A stretch of 64,000 bases of DNA from Gelria sp. Kuro-4 (GTDB lineage: Bacteria > Bacillota > DTU030 > DUMP01), in contig NZ_AP024619.1 of assembly GCF_019668485.1 (NCBI RefSeq), forward strand, positions 2,783,757 to 2,847,756. Reading direction: 5' to 3'. The number at the start of each line of letters is the position of its first letter. Within the stretch, counting starts at the first letter, position 1. This document shows, piece after piece, positions 6,601-11,376 of this stretch. Below the pieces are notes generated by a model. That model ran no database searches. It was not told the origin of the DNA and was given only the letters and a program-made list of their open reading frames with translations. The translations under genes and the position numbers were made by a program.

Positions 6601-7299
6601 CGCCAAGAGCCAGGGGTCCACACCGAAATCGCCGATGCCCCCGTACCACCAGTCCAGATTTGTGCAGTAATCCTCCACCAGGCCGCGTGAGATCCCGTAC
6701 ACCCCGCTCAGCGGGTCGCTGACGCGCAGGCCGAAAAGCGCCTCCAGTACGGGCGCCACGAAAAAGCTGCCGGTCGGGTCCTCAAAGTAGTGGCGGCGGA
6801 AGCTGGTTACCACCAAGTCGTAATCGTGCAGCAAAGGAAACAGCAGCCGCTCCAGCCAAGCAGGCTTGAACCCCCAGCCGCCGCGCTCCTTAAGGTCCGC
6901 CTCCAGAAGGATCACATCGGCGGCCAACTCCCGCGCCACCTCCAGGATGGCCCGGATGCTGAAGCCGCGCCCATTAACCCCCGCCGGCAGCAGGAACTCG
7001 CGGTGCGGCACATCCAGTTCCAGCCCCTGCACCGCCGCCAAGGCCTCAGCGCCGGCCGGGTCCCCGGCGCAGACAAAGAGCGGTTTCACATTGAGGAAGG
7101 GCCGCAGCCCCCGGGCGGCGGTGGCCAGCACCTCAGGCAGGGTGGCCTTTTCATTGTAAAAGGGCACGCCCACCACCACGTCCACCGTACCGACATCCCG
7201 CACCTGGCTCAAGGCGGCCTCCAGCGTGCCCTGGAACAGGTCTTCGCGCGCACGCAGCTCCTTTATGTTCAGATGAACCCCTCCCAAATCGGACAGCAT
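3682..7299 (-). CDS. Glycosyltransferase-GH130 phosphorylase fusion protein
   Basis: A protein of about 1205 residues. Residues 35-300 look like a GT-A glycosyltransferase of the glucosyl-phosphoglycerate/mannosylglycerate synthase type (VVGVPFYNEKATLPEV, then EADL as the metal-binding site, then DPLSGVYGISR). Residues 300-840 are helical and unassigned. Residues 850-1205 match GH130 mannoside phosphorylases: YLLYRAYGEDQVSRIGLA, the catalytic-Asp segment GCEDPRV, then YTAYDG, and a WDKDA segment. GH130 enzymes phosphorolyse or hydrolyse beta-mannosides; the other half would build a glycoside, so a role in compatible-solute or storage-glycan turnover is inferred. ATG 7299 has a weak ribosome site; CTG near 7272 sits behind GGGAGGGG. 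A longer frame opens at 7434. Confidence 0.8.
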   Translation of the reverse strand: MLSDLGGVHLNIKELRAREDLFQGTLEAALSQVRDVGTVDVVVGVPFYNEKATLPEVLATAARGLRPFLNVKPLFVCAGDPAGAEALAAVQGLELDVPHREFLLPAGVNGRGFSIRAILEVARELAADVILLEADLKERGGWGFKPAWLERLLFPLLHDYDLVVTSFRRHYFEDPTGSFFVAPVLEALFGLRVSDPLSGVYGISRGLVEDYCTNLDWWYGGIGDFGVDPWLLAQAVVWDKKICEVSLGAKLSPPAPSKRAHVFKQVARALFDCIKSHEDYWLKSQLILKRPDVYGLEARDRPLEVTCHLPDLIGSFTTGFDHFSALYARVFPEKEFKGLERLAGSRHEAEFRFSEELWAHVVYYLLQAYAFDQSLKSDDILEALRVLYDGRVAGFIAGMHDFRALVGQVKNLDLEDLTYEQVARLKENQVKEFRRFKGGFVKTWVEKAAEVRPVITPLDYLEFIPGVPLTLPKELKGLGGIPVRTGAVFRRLQERYSAAFHRFVHDALGLGPELSPAEVGAGVEHFMTELEQAVDALFPGDLTTPEGTDAVVREIFSLVPHQSILAVKDEMLHRLLTEFPPPNLLIRLGYASTAELLDHLDVRDAFTLAGISEEREYTDRLLWWLEDNLRPDSLEEVEIKPLIFTQETFPGVGELRDISHLDRLAARVTVSNLPKGLGGAFPKLRYFTHIAKSLVEAEHYSFIWQLYARERKEFGTKLVNSVIKHRGREVFSATNIFQNWHQRDLAARVHLLAENMARAGRPEAARLLKLMTEGYGLSLTLHDGTFIPCSAWTWASYSFRGGKGVPTPLSLHVERDWFHHDLLEEIYKEMGFRPQDIMTEVIERIGEGREASDLLDVLLGARPAEEVVLVQDASAFPPAGELKRASENPLLKPIGGHPWESRYVLNAATVRLEGKIYLLYRAYGEDQVSRIGLAVFDRARLMERLPEPIFSPALPEESRGCEDPRVVEIDGRLYMIYTAYDGVVAQVAGATISVEDFLAHRFDRWKRLGLAFPGLWDKDAILFPEKIGGKWVMYHRVEPSIWVSYSDTLRFPWPKQSHKIIIGPRSGLMWDSLKIGSGSQPIKTKYGWLLIYHGVSNTMVYRLGVILVDLRDPSRLLYRSPNPILSPETELEVGERGRSWVPNVVFTCGAVPGTDKAILEDEDEVLVYYGASDTYMCLASARVAELIPEEIRRRIAARAQGAKVV

Positions 7300-7437
7300 T
7301 TTTCTCTTGTCACATAAATTTGACGTCGCTGCCGGATATCCTTCCCTAGAATACCCCTTTTCTTCCTGCCGCAAGCAAAGAAGGCCCCGCCGCCGCGGAG
7401 CCGCCAAAAAGCGTATGCATAGGTGTAGTGGCAATAT

Positions 7438-8154
7438 CTACTGGACGCTCCCCCCGCACGGGGCGGCAGCCCCCTCTTTCTTTCCCTCAACAAAGCGCAG
7501 CAGGTTCGCGCGGGCGTTGGCCATGTGCTGGGCAATGCGCCGCGCCGCCAGGTCGCTGTCGTGCACCTTCAGCGCCTCGAAAATGCCCAGGTGCTCCTTA
7601 ACCGAGTAATGGATGCGCCCGGGCACGCTAAGGGAGCGCAGGCGCGCCTGCTCCACATAGTCCAGCATGCTGCCCAAGGCGTAGCGCAGGGCCTTGCTCT
7701 TGGACGCCTCCAGGAGGATGCGGTGAAACTCCGTGTCCAGCACGGTAATCTGCTCCACATCGTCTTTCGCCACATAAAACTCCTGTAGCTCCACCACTTC
7801 CTGCAGCTTCTTCAGTTCCTCTTCCGTAATACGTCGCGCCGCCCAGCTCGCCTCCAAGCTCTCCAGGTGCTCCCGGATAACAAAGATATCCTCTACGTCC
7901 TGGATGGTAATTCCTTCCACCACCACTCCACGATTCGGCAGGTAGCGCACCAGGCCTTCCAGCTCCAGCTGGCGCAAGGCCTCCCGGATGGGGGTACGGC
8001 TGACGCCGTACTGCGCCGCCAGCTTTACCTCCACCAGGCCTTCACCGGGAGCCAAGCGTCCTTTCAGGATGTCATCCCGCAGCTGGCAAAAAATGCTGTT
8101 GCGCAACACCTCTCTTCCCGCCTGCACATTCTCGCCACGTCGCGGCACCGTCAT
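7438..8154 (-). CDS. GntR family regulator, FCD (FadR-like) subgroup
   Basis: A protein of 238 residues. The N-terminal winged helix spans about 15-85 with the typical YGVSRTPIREALRQLELEGLV recognition region. The C-terminal all-helical FCD domain (about 90-225) carries the metal/ligand residues seen in FadR-type proteins (D and H in LDTEFHRILLEAS, then SVKEHLGIFEAL and later H in RRIAQHM). It represses or activates carbon-metabolism genes in response to a small carboxylate. ATG 8154 follows GAGGAGAG. A good sigma-A promoter lies upstream at 8271-8299. Its targets are unknown; the glycoside fusion gene lies directly downstream in the same direction, so it is a candidate target. Confidence 0.9.
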   Translation of the reverse strand: MTVPRRGENVQAGREVLRNSIFCQLRDDILKGRLAPGEGLVEVKLAAQYGVSRTPIREALRQLELEGLVRYLPNRGVVVEGITIQDVEDIFVIREHLESLEASWAARRITEEELKKLQEVVELQEFYVAKDDVEQITVLDTEFHRILLEASKSKALRYALGSMLDYVEQARLRSLSVPGRIHYSVKEHLGIFEALKVHDSDLAARRIAQHMANARANLLRFVEGKKEGAAAPCGGSVQ

Positions 8155-8270
8155 TCTCTCCTCTCATCAAACCCGTTCTCCCAAGTGTCGCAGCGTGCTT
8201 ACTATCCCCCTCACGCTCTATCCCATATTCGCTACGGTCGACCGGGTTGTATCTACGTATACTCGTTTTT

Positions 8271-8299
8271 ATTGTATGCTATTTCTATAACGACCGCAA
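8271..8299 (-). promoter_or_regulatory. Sigma-A promoter of the GntR gene
   Basis: On the minus strand, TTGCGG (8299-8294), a 17-base spacer and TACAAT (8276-8271). It lies 120 bases upstream of the GntR start. A GTATAC core at 8257-8262, typical of FadR-type operators, sits just downstream and could allow autoregulation. Confidence 0.6.
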
Positions 8300-8301
8300 G
8301 G

Positions 8302-8331
8302 TAAAAAACGCACCCGCAGGTGGCGGGTGCA
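8302..8331 (-). terminator. Rho-independent terminator of the 56-residue gene
   Basis: GCACCCGC (8310-8317) pairs with GCGGGTGC (8323-8330) around a 5-base loop. On the minus strand it is followed by a run of six T residues (8308-8303). It lies 45 bases past the small gene stop at 8376 and just before the GntR promoter. Confidence 0.8.
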
Positions 8332-8375
8332 CAGGCCTTATAAGGAAGCCTACCTAGTTAACACTGGGAGATCCC

Positions 8376-8546
8376 CTAGTCCTCCAGGGGACGCGTGAGG
8401 AGATAATCGTTCAGGAACAAGTTGCGCAGCAGGGATAGCGTTGTGTCCGTTGCGGCTGGCGCCTTGGCTTCTTGTGGCCCCTGCTTCAGAACCCTTAAGT
8501 GTGCCCGTAAAAGTCCCGGTACCTCGACGGCCTTGCTTACGCTCAC
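8376..8546 (-). CDS. Small hypothetical protein, 56 residues, own promoter and terminator
   Basis: The product begins MSVSKAVEVPGLLRAHLRVL and ends LTRPLED. It has an amphipathic helical character and an acidic end, with no signal peptide. GTG at 8546 follows GGGGAGG at suitable spacing. A near-consensus promoter lies 60 bases upstream (8603-8631) and a clean terminator 45 bases downstream (8302-8331), so this is a complete monocistronic unit. I do not recognise the family. Confidence 0.65.
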   Translation of the reverse strand: MSVSKAVEVPGLLRAHLRVLKQGPQEAKAPAATDTTLSLLRNLFLNDYLLTRPLED

Positions 8547-8602
8547 CTCCGGACACCTCCCCGTGGTTTCTCAGCGCGATTGAATTTCTGTATCCGTGTA
8601 TT

Positions 8603-8631
8603 ATTGTATACATTGCCCGCGGGAAAGTCAA
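8603..8631 (-). promoter_or_regulatory. Sigma-A promoter of the 56-residue gene, with GTATAC palindrome
   Basis: Minus strand TTGACT (8631-8626), exactly 17 bases, TACAAT (8608-8603). A TGTATACA palindrome overlaps the -10 box (8606-8613) and resembles FadR-type GntR operators, so regulation by the adjacent GntR protein is possible. Confidence 0.7.
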
Positions 8632-8763
8632 CGCCTTCAGAAATAGTCGCAATTGCACGTCCTCACATAGCCTTGGGCAGTCGCCCGGCGGCCGCCCGCC
8701 CCCGGCTTCCTTCTTGTCGGCCCATGCCACCACCTGCCTTCTGTTCGCGCACGCCAGGCCTAC

Positions 8764-8823
8764 CTACGGGCGAACTCCAAAGCAGCGCCAATAGGCCGTA
8801 AGCCAACGCCACAGGTAACCCAT
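8764..8823 (-). CDS. Very short ORF (19 residues), aromatic-rich, leader-like
   Basis: ATG at 8823 follows GGGGAGG and encodes MGYLWRWLTAYWRCFGVRP before TAG. The peptide holds three Trp and two Tyr residues. A promoter (8855-8883) lies 30 bases upstream. It could be a leader peptide, a tiny membrane peptide or a relic of a longer gene; the ribosome site and promoter are the only support. Confidence 0.35.
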   Translation of the reverse strand: MGYLWRWLTAYWRCFGVRP

Positions 8824-8854
8824 GCGATCAAGCCTCCCCTCTTGCTTATGCCTT

Positions 8855-8883
8855 ATTCTAACCACTGCAAAGGGAGCTTTCAA
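8855..8883 (-). promoter_or_regulatory. Sigma-A promoter, minus strand
   Basis: TTGAAA (8883-8878), 17-base spacer, TAGAAT (8860-8855) on the minus strand, 32 bases upstream of the 19-residue ORF. Together with the plus-strand TATAAT at 8971 it makes a divergent promoter region. Confidence 0.55.
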
Positions 8884-8947
8884 TACTTTCTGTAAGCTAT
8901 CCTCTCATATGAATGTTAGGTAGAATGCCGGAATAATATTTTTCCCC

Positions 8948-8976
8948 TGGTGGTTACGATCGGGGTATAGTATAAT
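8948..8976 (+). promoter_or_regulatory. Probable promoter of the helicase leader
   Basis: A consensus TATAAT (8971-8976) in an AT-rich pocket. The -35 region (TGGTGG, 8948-8953) is poor. Transcription from here would give a leader of about 350 bases before the helicase start. Confidence 0.4.
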
Positions 8977-8982
8977 GAGAAG

Positions 8983-9166
8983 AGAGTCGGAGGAGCTGTG
9001 GTGGTCGGCGCACGGGGAAACCCTTGGACGCGGCCGGCGCAGAGTCGCCGCCGCGGGGAACGTTCACTGGATCCGGCAAACTGGCCGCTGCTGCACAATG
9101 GTGCATACCGCAAGGTACGGAATCGATCAGTGTGGCGCCGGGAAGGTAACCGGCGCCTTTGATTTT
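8983..9166 (+). ncRNA. Structured leader/small RNA ending in a terminator-like hairpin
   Basis: Between the TATAAT at 8971 and the helicase there is GC-rich sequence with local hairpins: TGCAC/GTGCA, TACC-GCAA-GGTA, and a strong final stem GGCGCCGG (9134-9141) with CCGGCGCC (9150-9157) followed by TTTGATTTTG. The last is an intrinsic-terminator shape, so this could be an attenuated leader or an independent small RNA of about 180 bases. I compared it by eye with common riboswitch cores (cobalamin, c-di-GMP, T-box, fluoride) and with SRP, tmRNA and RNase P motifs and found no match. Confidence 0.45.
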
Positions 9167-9261
9167 GTCCAGCCCGGGTGGTGCCGGTCGACACTGCCTG
9201 CTCAGTCCCGCGCCTCTGGCCCGAAGCAAAAAGGAGAAAGAAGGAGGTCCAGCGTTTGTCC

Positions 9262-9288
9262 CCGAGCAGCTCAGAGGGCTAAAACCCC
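9262..9288 (+). other. Mini-ORF in the helicase leader
   Basis: AAGGAGG is followed, eight bases on, by a TTG-initiated frame of 8 sense codons ending TAA (about 9256-9282). It may act as a translated leader element; the evidence is the ribosome site only. Confidence 0.25.
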
Positions 9289-9336
9289 CTGTAACTGGAA
9301 ACCATTTACCGTGAATATTACAGTACATTAAGGAGA

Positions 9337-10764
9337 GTGAAAGCACTGACTACCTTTGACCAATTGGGATTGAGCCCAGCCGTGCTTGAGGCCGTAAGCA
9401 ACATGGGCTTTGAAGAAACCACGCCGATTCAGGCGGAAACCATTCCTTTGTCCCTGGCCGGTCGGGACGTTATCGGCCAAGCGCAGACCGGCACCGGCAA
9501 AACAGCGGCCTATGGGATTCCCCTGGTGGAACAGGTGGATCCGCAGCAGGGCCAAATTCAAGCCCTGGTGGTCACACCTACCCGGGAGCTGGCCATGCAG
9601 GTCGCCGAGGAGCTCAACCGGGTCGGGCAGTTCAAGCACGTGCGGGCGCTGCCGATTTACGGCGGCCAGGACATCAACCGTCAGATCCGGGCGCTGGCCA
9701 AAGGACAGCACATCGTGGTCGGCACCCCGGGACGCCTGCTGGACCACCTGCGGCGCCGGACGGTCCGCCTGGCCCACATTAAGGCCGTTGTTCTGGATGA
9801 AGCCGACGAAATGCTGAACATGGGTTTCATTGATGACATCAAGGCCATCCTGCGCGAGGTTCCGGCCGAGCATCAAACCATGCTCTTTTCCGCCACCATG
9901 CCCGAGCCGATTCGGAGCCTGGCCGAACAGTTCATGCACGACCCAGAGCTGATCGCCATTCGCCCGAAGGAACTAACCGTGCCGGCCATCGAGCAGCACT
10001 ACCTGGAGGTGCCGGAACGGCAGAAGTTCGACGTGCTCTGCCGCCTGCTCGATCTCGAGGCCCCGGACCTGGCCATCGTCTTTGGACGGACCAAGCGCCG
10101 GGTAAGCGAACTGGCCGAGGCCCTGGCTAAACGCGGCTATGCCACCGAAGGCATCCACGGTGATCTAACCCAGGCCCAGCGGGACAATGTAATGCGGCAG
10201 TTTCGCGAGCGAACCATTGAAGTCCTGGTGGCGACCGATGTGGCCGCCCGCGGGCTGGACGTAAGCGGCGTCACCCATGTCTTCAACTTCGACGTCCCGC
10301 AGGACCCGGAAGGTTACGTTCACCGCATCGGCCGCACCGGGCGGGCCGGAAAAGCGGGCGCGGCCATCACCTTCGTCACCCCGCGGGAAATGAACCAGCT
10401 GCGGCAGATCGAGCAGCTGATCAAACGCAAAATACCGCGCCGCCCCGTGCCCACGCTCACCGAGACCATCGAGGGTCAGAAGCGCCTCACGGTGGAAAAA
10501 CTCCTCGAAACCGTAGAGTCCGCCGACGTGGAGCGCTATAAGGCGGTGGCGGAAAACCTGCTCGAGGAAACCGATTCTGTGCTGCTCCTGGCCGCAGCGC
10601 TCAAGCTCCTCACCCGCGAGCCGACCACCACGCCGATCGAACTCAGCGTCGAAGCGCCGCCCCGCCGGCGGGTACGCCCCCGGGGCGGCAGCCGGCACGG
10701 GCAGGTGCGAGGTAAGACCGCACCGCACAAACGGAGTCACGGCGACACCCGGCACCGTCCTTAG
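9337..10764 (+). CDS. DEAD-box ATP-dependent RNA helicase (CshA/DeaD-like)
   Basis: A protein of 475 residues with every helicase motif in order: Q motif GFEETTPIQ (about 28), motif I AQTGTGKT (48), PTRELA (81), DEAD (151), SAT (183), [10 protein letters not shown] (297) and [10 protein letters not shown] (329). The C-terminus is basic and rich in Arg and Gly ([14 protein letters not shown]), suited to RNA binding. The family remodels RNA in ribosome assembly, mRNA decay and cold shock. GTG 9337 almost touches AAGGAG; CTG 9346, which aligns with the usual family N-terminus ([10 protein letters not shown]), has better spacing. The long structured leader suggests post-transcriptional control. 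A strong terminator follows. Confidence 0.95.
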
Positions 10765-11024: not shown

Positions 11025-11321
11025 GTTTCCATTCCTCGTAGGTAGGCTCACAACCCCTTCCGGGACCGCCTGCTGCACCACGCTCTTTGGTTTCCATCCC
11101 TCGCAGGTAGGCTCAGGACCCGTTGTGCCCCCAGGCCCATACGGTGCCGTCAGACTTATTTCCATCCCTCGTAGGTAGGCTCAGAACCATGTTTGCCCCT
11201 TCGCTCCTTGTTGATGCCTTGTCGTTTCCATTCCTTGTAGGTAGGCTCAGAATACGACCTCCGCATCTCCAGCCGCGCCCGGACGGACGCGGTTTCCATT
11301 CCTTGTAGGTAGGCTCAGAAC
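11025..11321 (-). CRISPR. CRISPR array, five 30-bp repeats, four spacers
   Basis: Repeats lie at 11025-11054, 11090-11119, 11158-11187, 11224-11253 and 11292-11321; on the plus strand each begins GTTTCCAT and ends near GGCTCAGAAC. Spacers are 35, 38, 36 and 38 bases. The reverse complement (GTTCTGAGCCTACCT... ending GGAATGGAAAC) has the ATTGAAAC-like 3' end usual for clostridial type I/III repeats, so transcription is leftward. Consistent with that, the left repeats are degenerate (CACAAC end in the first, Gly-rich changes in the second, ATTTCC start in the third) while the two right repeats are nearly identical. No cas1 or cas2 is adjacent; a cas6 remnant lies on the leader side. Confidence 0.95.
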
Positions 11322-11376
11322 CGTCGCGGGGCTGAAAATACTGGCCTTTTCCTTACGCCTTCTTGGCTCTTTTGAG
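11322..11376 (-). promoter_or_regulatory. Probable CRISPR leader
   Basis: Short sequence between the best-conserved repeat and the cas6 remnant, on the leader side by repeat orientation. No clear promoter was found, and the leader may be truncated. Confidence 0.35.

Follow-up and report, generated by a model that had tools for sequence, protein, structure and literature searches.

An intrinsic terminator ahead of a cshA-type RNA helicase gene in Gelria sp. Kuro-4: a candidate for control by premature transcription termination

Introduction

In Caulobacter crescentus, the DEAD-box RNA helicase RhlE is dependent on a long 5' UTR and apparently controls its own mRNA; the higher expression in an rhlE mutant was taken by the authors as self-regulation (PMC5472812, in excerpt). 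In Synechocystis, the RNA helicase CrhR autoregulates (PMC3485376, in excerpt). For Bacillus subtilis, it was reported that expression of vmlR is induced upon loss of CshA (PMC9226507, in excerpt) and that cold-shock proteins affect readthrough of terminators (PMC8307031, in excerpt). A search of the literature by titles and the beginnings of abstracts, mostly outside subscription journals, yielded no description of an attenuator in a cshA leader.

Here we analyze the leader of a cshA-type gene within a stretch of 64,000 nucleotides from Gelria sp. Kuro-4 (NZ_AP024619.1, positions 2,783,757 to 2,847,756), hereafter called the window, the numbering of which is used throughout. The locus resembles rhlE in that a long 5' UTR with predicted stem-loops precedes a gene for a DEAD-box helicase, but RhlE belongs to another helicase subfamily and phylum, and no leader terminator is described in the excerpt consulted (PMC5472812). 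With CrhR it would have in common that an RNA helicase gene regulates its own expression with temperature, whereas CrhR, according to the available part of the article, acts via the stability of transcript and protein and not via a leader terminator (PMC3485376). Ribosome-mediated attenuators of the vmlR type likewise combine a terminator with short frames in the leader (PMC9226507, in excerpt), but in the window the frames are not kept in the relative G006 and the candidate antiterminator pairing lies within the range of shuffled sequences. A parallel in gene order is found in other Clostridia and in Bacilli, where an intrinsic terminator also lies between promoter and cshA; there, a cold-shock-protein gene (csp) precedes the terminator, whereas the window locus has none, and a search of the genome for cold-shock-domain genes found none.

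Results

The leader is followed by a gene for a DEAD-box RNA helicase (9346–10764, + strand), as a sequence-only reading of the window had proposed. Its product has the domains PF00270 and PF00271 and matches the NCBIfam model NF053631, 'degradosome RNA helicase CshA', at 710.6 bits (cut-off 646), which makes it a cshA-type gene. Translation probably starts at the CTG at 9346–9348 behind the ribosome-binding site AAGGAGA (9330–9336); the same spacing between Shine-Dalgarno (SD) sequence and start codon is found with CTG in both cshA copies of G004 and with TTG in G006, and the alternative GTG at 9337 abuts the SD sequence. The nearest larger neighbor, identified by profile matches as a GntR/FCD regulator (7438–8154), is divergent from cshA. 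Upstream of the gene, a likely promoter (8948–8976, + strand, 8/12 matches) consists of a perfect -10 element TATAAT (8971–8976, 6/6) and a poor -35 element TGGTGG at a spacing of 17; it was picked up by the laxer of two promoter scans and is absent from the list of the stricter one. Transcription would start near 8983, and the positions of promoter and start codon predict a leader RNA of approximately 360 nt (8983–9345).

Between this moderate promoter and the coding region, as in an attenuator, lies an intrinsic terminator on the + strand (9134–9167), in which a stem at 9134–9157 with 8 G-C pairs, a loop of 8 nt and a stability of -18.5 kcal/mol is followed by a T-rich tail at 9158–9167 (TTTGATTTTG). 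Under strict criteria, which were set after the site had been seen, an equally good terminator occurred in 0.7% of 2000 dinucleotide shuffles of 8155–9345 and in 0.1% for shuffles of 8971–9336. By these criteria the terminator is beyond chance, and the terminator-like stem and T run noted in the sequence-only reading are confirmed. A laxer terminator scan gave no excess, with 4 sites compared to 3.8 expected. By stem-and-tail score, the site ranks 8th among 24 terminator-like sites in the window, and the seven better-ranked sites lie between crude gene calls in six cases and inside a crude ORF in one; it thus equals the gene-end terminators of the window in quality. The terminator has no likely owner among upstream genes on the + strand, because the forward frames at 8441–8794 and 8580–8801 stop at a distance of over 330 nt from it and overlie conserved small ORFs of the reverse strand, and the GntR-type neighbor is divergent.

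Outside the terminator, the leader folds much as its composition would lead one to expect. A GC-rich 5' hairpin (8999–9047, + strand) reached -20.0 kcal/mol when this segment was folded alone, but the whole leader (366 nt) was no more stable than its shuffles (-135.5 vs a mean of -135.4 kcal/mol, z -0.01), and for the first 194 nt a z of -1.59 was obtained, with 15 of 200 shuffles as stable or more stable. The structure apart from the terminator is thus what GC-rich sequence yields, and the earlier impression of a specially structured leader with several hairpins did not hold. The same reading had recognized no known riboswitch core, in agreement with covariance-model searches against Rfam: at gathering thresholds there were no matches across the window, the lowest E-value in a relaxed scan of 8800–9450 was 0.64, with nothing above threshold, and no family exceeded its threshold in the G006 leader. 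6S RNA (RF00013), considered because of the size of 184 nt, was rejected; the single match in the genome lies at 1977719–1977898, away from the leader. Before the 3' arm of the terminator has been made, its 5' arm is predicted to pair upstream (mean 0.82) and to shift to the terminator by position 9157. Such upstream pairing is within the range of shuffles both here (0.82 vs 0.75; 36% of 300 shuffles reach 0.82) and in G006 (0.78 vs 0.55; 12% of shuffles reach it). The terminated fold has an advantage of only 3 kcal/mol over the best alternative that lacks this helix.

Thirteen genomes of the class were compared, 8 from the family of the window and 5 from its sister family. A close cshA (E ≤1e-100) was present in 5 of the 13, all within the window's family. 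The DNA of the leader had no match in 40 other genomes. G006 has the same plan as the window, comprising promoter, approximately 175 nt, terminator, approximately 100 nt and start, with the promoter at -331 to -304 and the terminator at -128 to -100 relative to the TTG start of cshA, and with sequence similarity near the start codon only. The G006 terminator was detected by the laxer scan and missed by the strict one due to one mismatch. Because G006 has this plan behind a different upstream gene, the plan appears to go with cshA. When the G006 leader was compared with 31 genomes, DNA similarity was restricted to G004, over a segment of approximately 40 nt close to the start codon. In an alignment of the last ~100 nt before the start, AACCAT, TAC and GGAG are common to the window, G006 and G004, which makes the start-proximal part of the leader look homologous; AACCAT and TAC are invariant parts of a block (GGAAACCATTTAC, 9297–9309, + strand) that is partly common to G006 and G004. 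In G005, another member of the family, the leader is short; its promoter lies at -63 to -35, and no terminator was found in it. For each of the two cshA copies of G004, the end of the contig leaves 85 nt of upstream sequence, and the G007 contig starts inside cshA.

In G001, which belongs to the same genus as the window, neither leader nor helicase is present (best E 3.7e-8, no close cshA). Its DNA aligns at ~75% over window positions 7002–8918 and the match ends just before the promoter, indicating that leader and gene were gained or lost as one block. The cshA genes of G006 and of one G004 copy contain an in-frame TAA, and this premature stop codon means that the G006 gene may escape full selection. 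The cshA proteins of G006 and of contig 43 of G004 (L124/L125) share an apparently identical stretch on both sides of a common premature stop, with differing N-termini, a pattern reflecting either recombination or an artefact of assembly or binning.

To see the leader in a wider context, 109 cshA-type loci were surveyed, the window and three duplicates included, on the basis of crude gene calls. The crude caller took a 130-codon reverse frame over the leader as a gene, and the GntR gene of the window was therefore set by hand. The three duplicates were dropped, as were loci whose crude neighbor was missing or co-directional, csp loci and loci with less than 120 nt of intergenic sequence, leaving 35 with a divergent neighbor. 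A forward terminator was found in 5/35 (0.33 expected from shuffles), one of them (L070) 835 nt from the start, and a terminator on the opposite strand in 6/35. Leader terminators therefore occur elsewhere but are not specific to the cshA side. Together with the short, terminator-free leader of G005, this lends no support to the idea that cshA genes generally carry such leaders, and attenuation as a general feature of cshA was rejected; leader terminators are patchy among cshA genes and not a conserved feature. In the leaders of L026 and L068, a similar element (GAAACTGC...GCAGTTTC) was seen by eye beside a GAGGCGGGG-ATTAGAA-CCC hairpin, in opposite orientations, possibly a small mobile repeat.

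A csp gene lies directly upstream in 10 of the 109 loci (L005, L006, L010, L014, L044, L045, L071, L072, L087 and L092), and a terminator separates the two genes in all ten. By eye, eight of these ten terminators are alike (GGCAT..TTCC...GGAA..ATGCC type) and vary by apparently compensating changes. A gene for a cold-shock-domain protein was found in none of the 8 genomes of the window's family, the window's own included, so that this family seems to have lost cold-shock proteins. In the sister family, the distribution is the opposite, with csp in 5/5 genomes and a close cshA in 0/5.

Discussion

The reading that fits these observations best, and to which we give about as much credence as doubt, is that the leader belongs to cshA and subjects it in cis to premature termination of transcription. 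The attenuation of the helicase gene proposed in the sequence-only reading is supported by the terminator beyond chance, the similar plan in G006 and the absence of the leader where cshA is absent; a special structure of the leader and a generality among cshA genes are not supported. Against control in cis stand the pairing of the 5' arm within the range of shuffles, the margin of only 3 kcal/mol for the terminated fold, the missing arrangement in G005, the survey, in which forward terminators did not outnumber reverse ones, the poor -35 element and the premature stop in the G006 gene. According to this model, transcription would begin near 8983 and, judging from the strength of the terminator, most transcripts would end at 9158–9167, whereas transcripts reading through would gain approximately 180 nt of leader and the helicase gene. 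The share of readthrough would be set by whether the upstream leader still holds the 5' arm (9134–9141) when the 3' arm emerges. The likeliest signal may be the capacity for RNA unwinding, since helicase genes elsewhere regulate themselves (PMC5472812 and PMC3485376, both in excerpt): when CshA is scarce or the temperature low, the upstream pairing would stay and the polymerase would read through, and with ample CshA this pairing would be resolved and the terminator would form, resulting in negative feedback.

Alternatively, the terminator could be unregulated or insulating, trimming the expression of cshA from its promoter or blocking readthrough without any sensing. We consider this unlikely, as the promoter located just upstream and the similar plan in G006 suggest more than an accident, even if an antiterminator no stronger than chance, a whole-leader fold resembling shuffles and a G005 leader that does not keep the plan are what an insulating terminator would predict.

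The open frames of the leader bear on two further explanations. A frame of 54 codons (8998–9162, + strand) starts with GTG behind the SD sequence GGAGGAG (8989–8995), crosses the terminator stem and has its stop codon in the tail. It could encode a leader peptide or a small protein, or possibly be due to chance. Its codon score (-0.013) just exceeds that of 95% of the off-frame segments (limit -0.018), but is low for coding sequences (5th percentile -0.089, median 0.174). The peptide has no homolog in 61 genomes, with only weak matches outside its own genome, and belongs to no Pfam family. The best of these matches, in G007 (E 5.9e-4, the only one below 0.01), was rejected as a homolog; by eye, the matching stretch was read as the antisense of a molybdopterin-type gene. 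The mini-ORF of the earlier reading is present as well, as a TTG, 8 codons and TAA (9256–9282, + strand) behind the strong SD sequence AAGGAGG (9241–9247), but it is missing from G006, the sole relative with a long leader that can be read, and no homologous open frames were found in the G006 leader. The 118-codon (8975–9331) and 130-codon reverse frames, with codon scores of -0.09 and -0.16, resemble chance in GC-rich DNA and were discarded.

Given a promoter, SD sequence, GTG and terminator spaced as in a small gene, the codon score of the 54-codon frame and two further small ORFs nearby, 8983–9167 might constitute a stand-alone unit for a small RNA or a small protein, with cshA expressed by leak-through or from a candidate promoter at 9296–9324 (TGGAAA-17-TACAGT), which scores 8/12. 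This explanation appears decidedly unlikely, because the RNA is without homolog in the 40 other genomes, the one outside match of the peptide below 0.01 is the antisense stretch described above, the frame takes in the terminator stem, and transcripts from the promoter at 9296–9324, which is not in the G006 promoter list, would start at the ribosome-binding site. Leader-peptide attenuation, in which a ribosome translating either the 54-codon frame or the 9256 mini-ORF chooses between the terminator and another structure, has a precedent working in a similar way in B. subtilis vmlR (PMC9226507, in excerpt) and agrees with the SD sequence and GTG of a frame spanning the stem and with the second SD sequence before the mini-ORF, yet it is quite improbable here, as G006 keeps neither frame and an open frame of 54 codons is not rare at such a GC content (about one in four by our own estimate).

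Returning to premature termination in cis, the apparent lack of csp genes in the window's family permits a more far-reaching version, which we regard as highly speculative and would not expect to prove correct: cshA would have become the main RNA chaperone, equipped with its own unwinding-sensing attenuator that replaces the csp - terminator - cshA readthrough of related lineages, and the terminator would form only once the helicase, or a higher temperature, has opened the upstream pairing. If readthrough does track helicase activity, the leader would sense in compact form, and with nothing more than a terminator, how much RNA-unwinding capacity the cell has, and this in a lineage in which no cold-shock-domain proteins were detected. 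As the evidence stands, the leader is patchy and fast-changing and represents at most one more plausible attenuator of a known type, and none of the results points to a new kind of RNA switch.

Several smaller features surround the locus. On the reverse strand, 8376–8546 encodes a small protein of 56 codons with a GTG start that shows 71% identity in the same-genus genome G001 (E 8.7e-18) and matches no Pfam family; a promoter-like site at 8631–8603 and a terminator at 8331–8309 fit an independent gene. Also on the reverse strand, a 19-codon micro-ORF (8764–8823, MGYLWRWLTAYWRCFGVRP) is identical in 16 of 19 residues in G001 (MSYLWRWLMAYWRCFGVRL) and is preceded by an SD sequence and a promoter-like site at 8883–8855. 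Downstream of cshA, regularly spaced repeats (TTTCCATTCCTTGTAGGTAGGCTCAGAA) at 11035–11330 look by eye like a CRISPR-like array.
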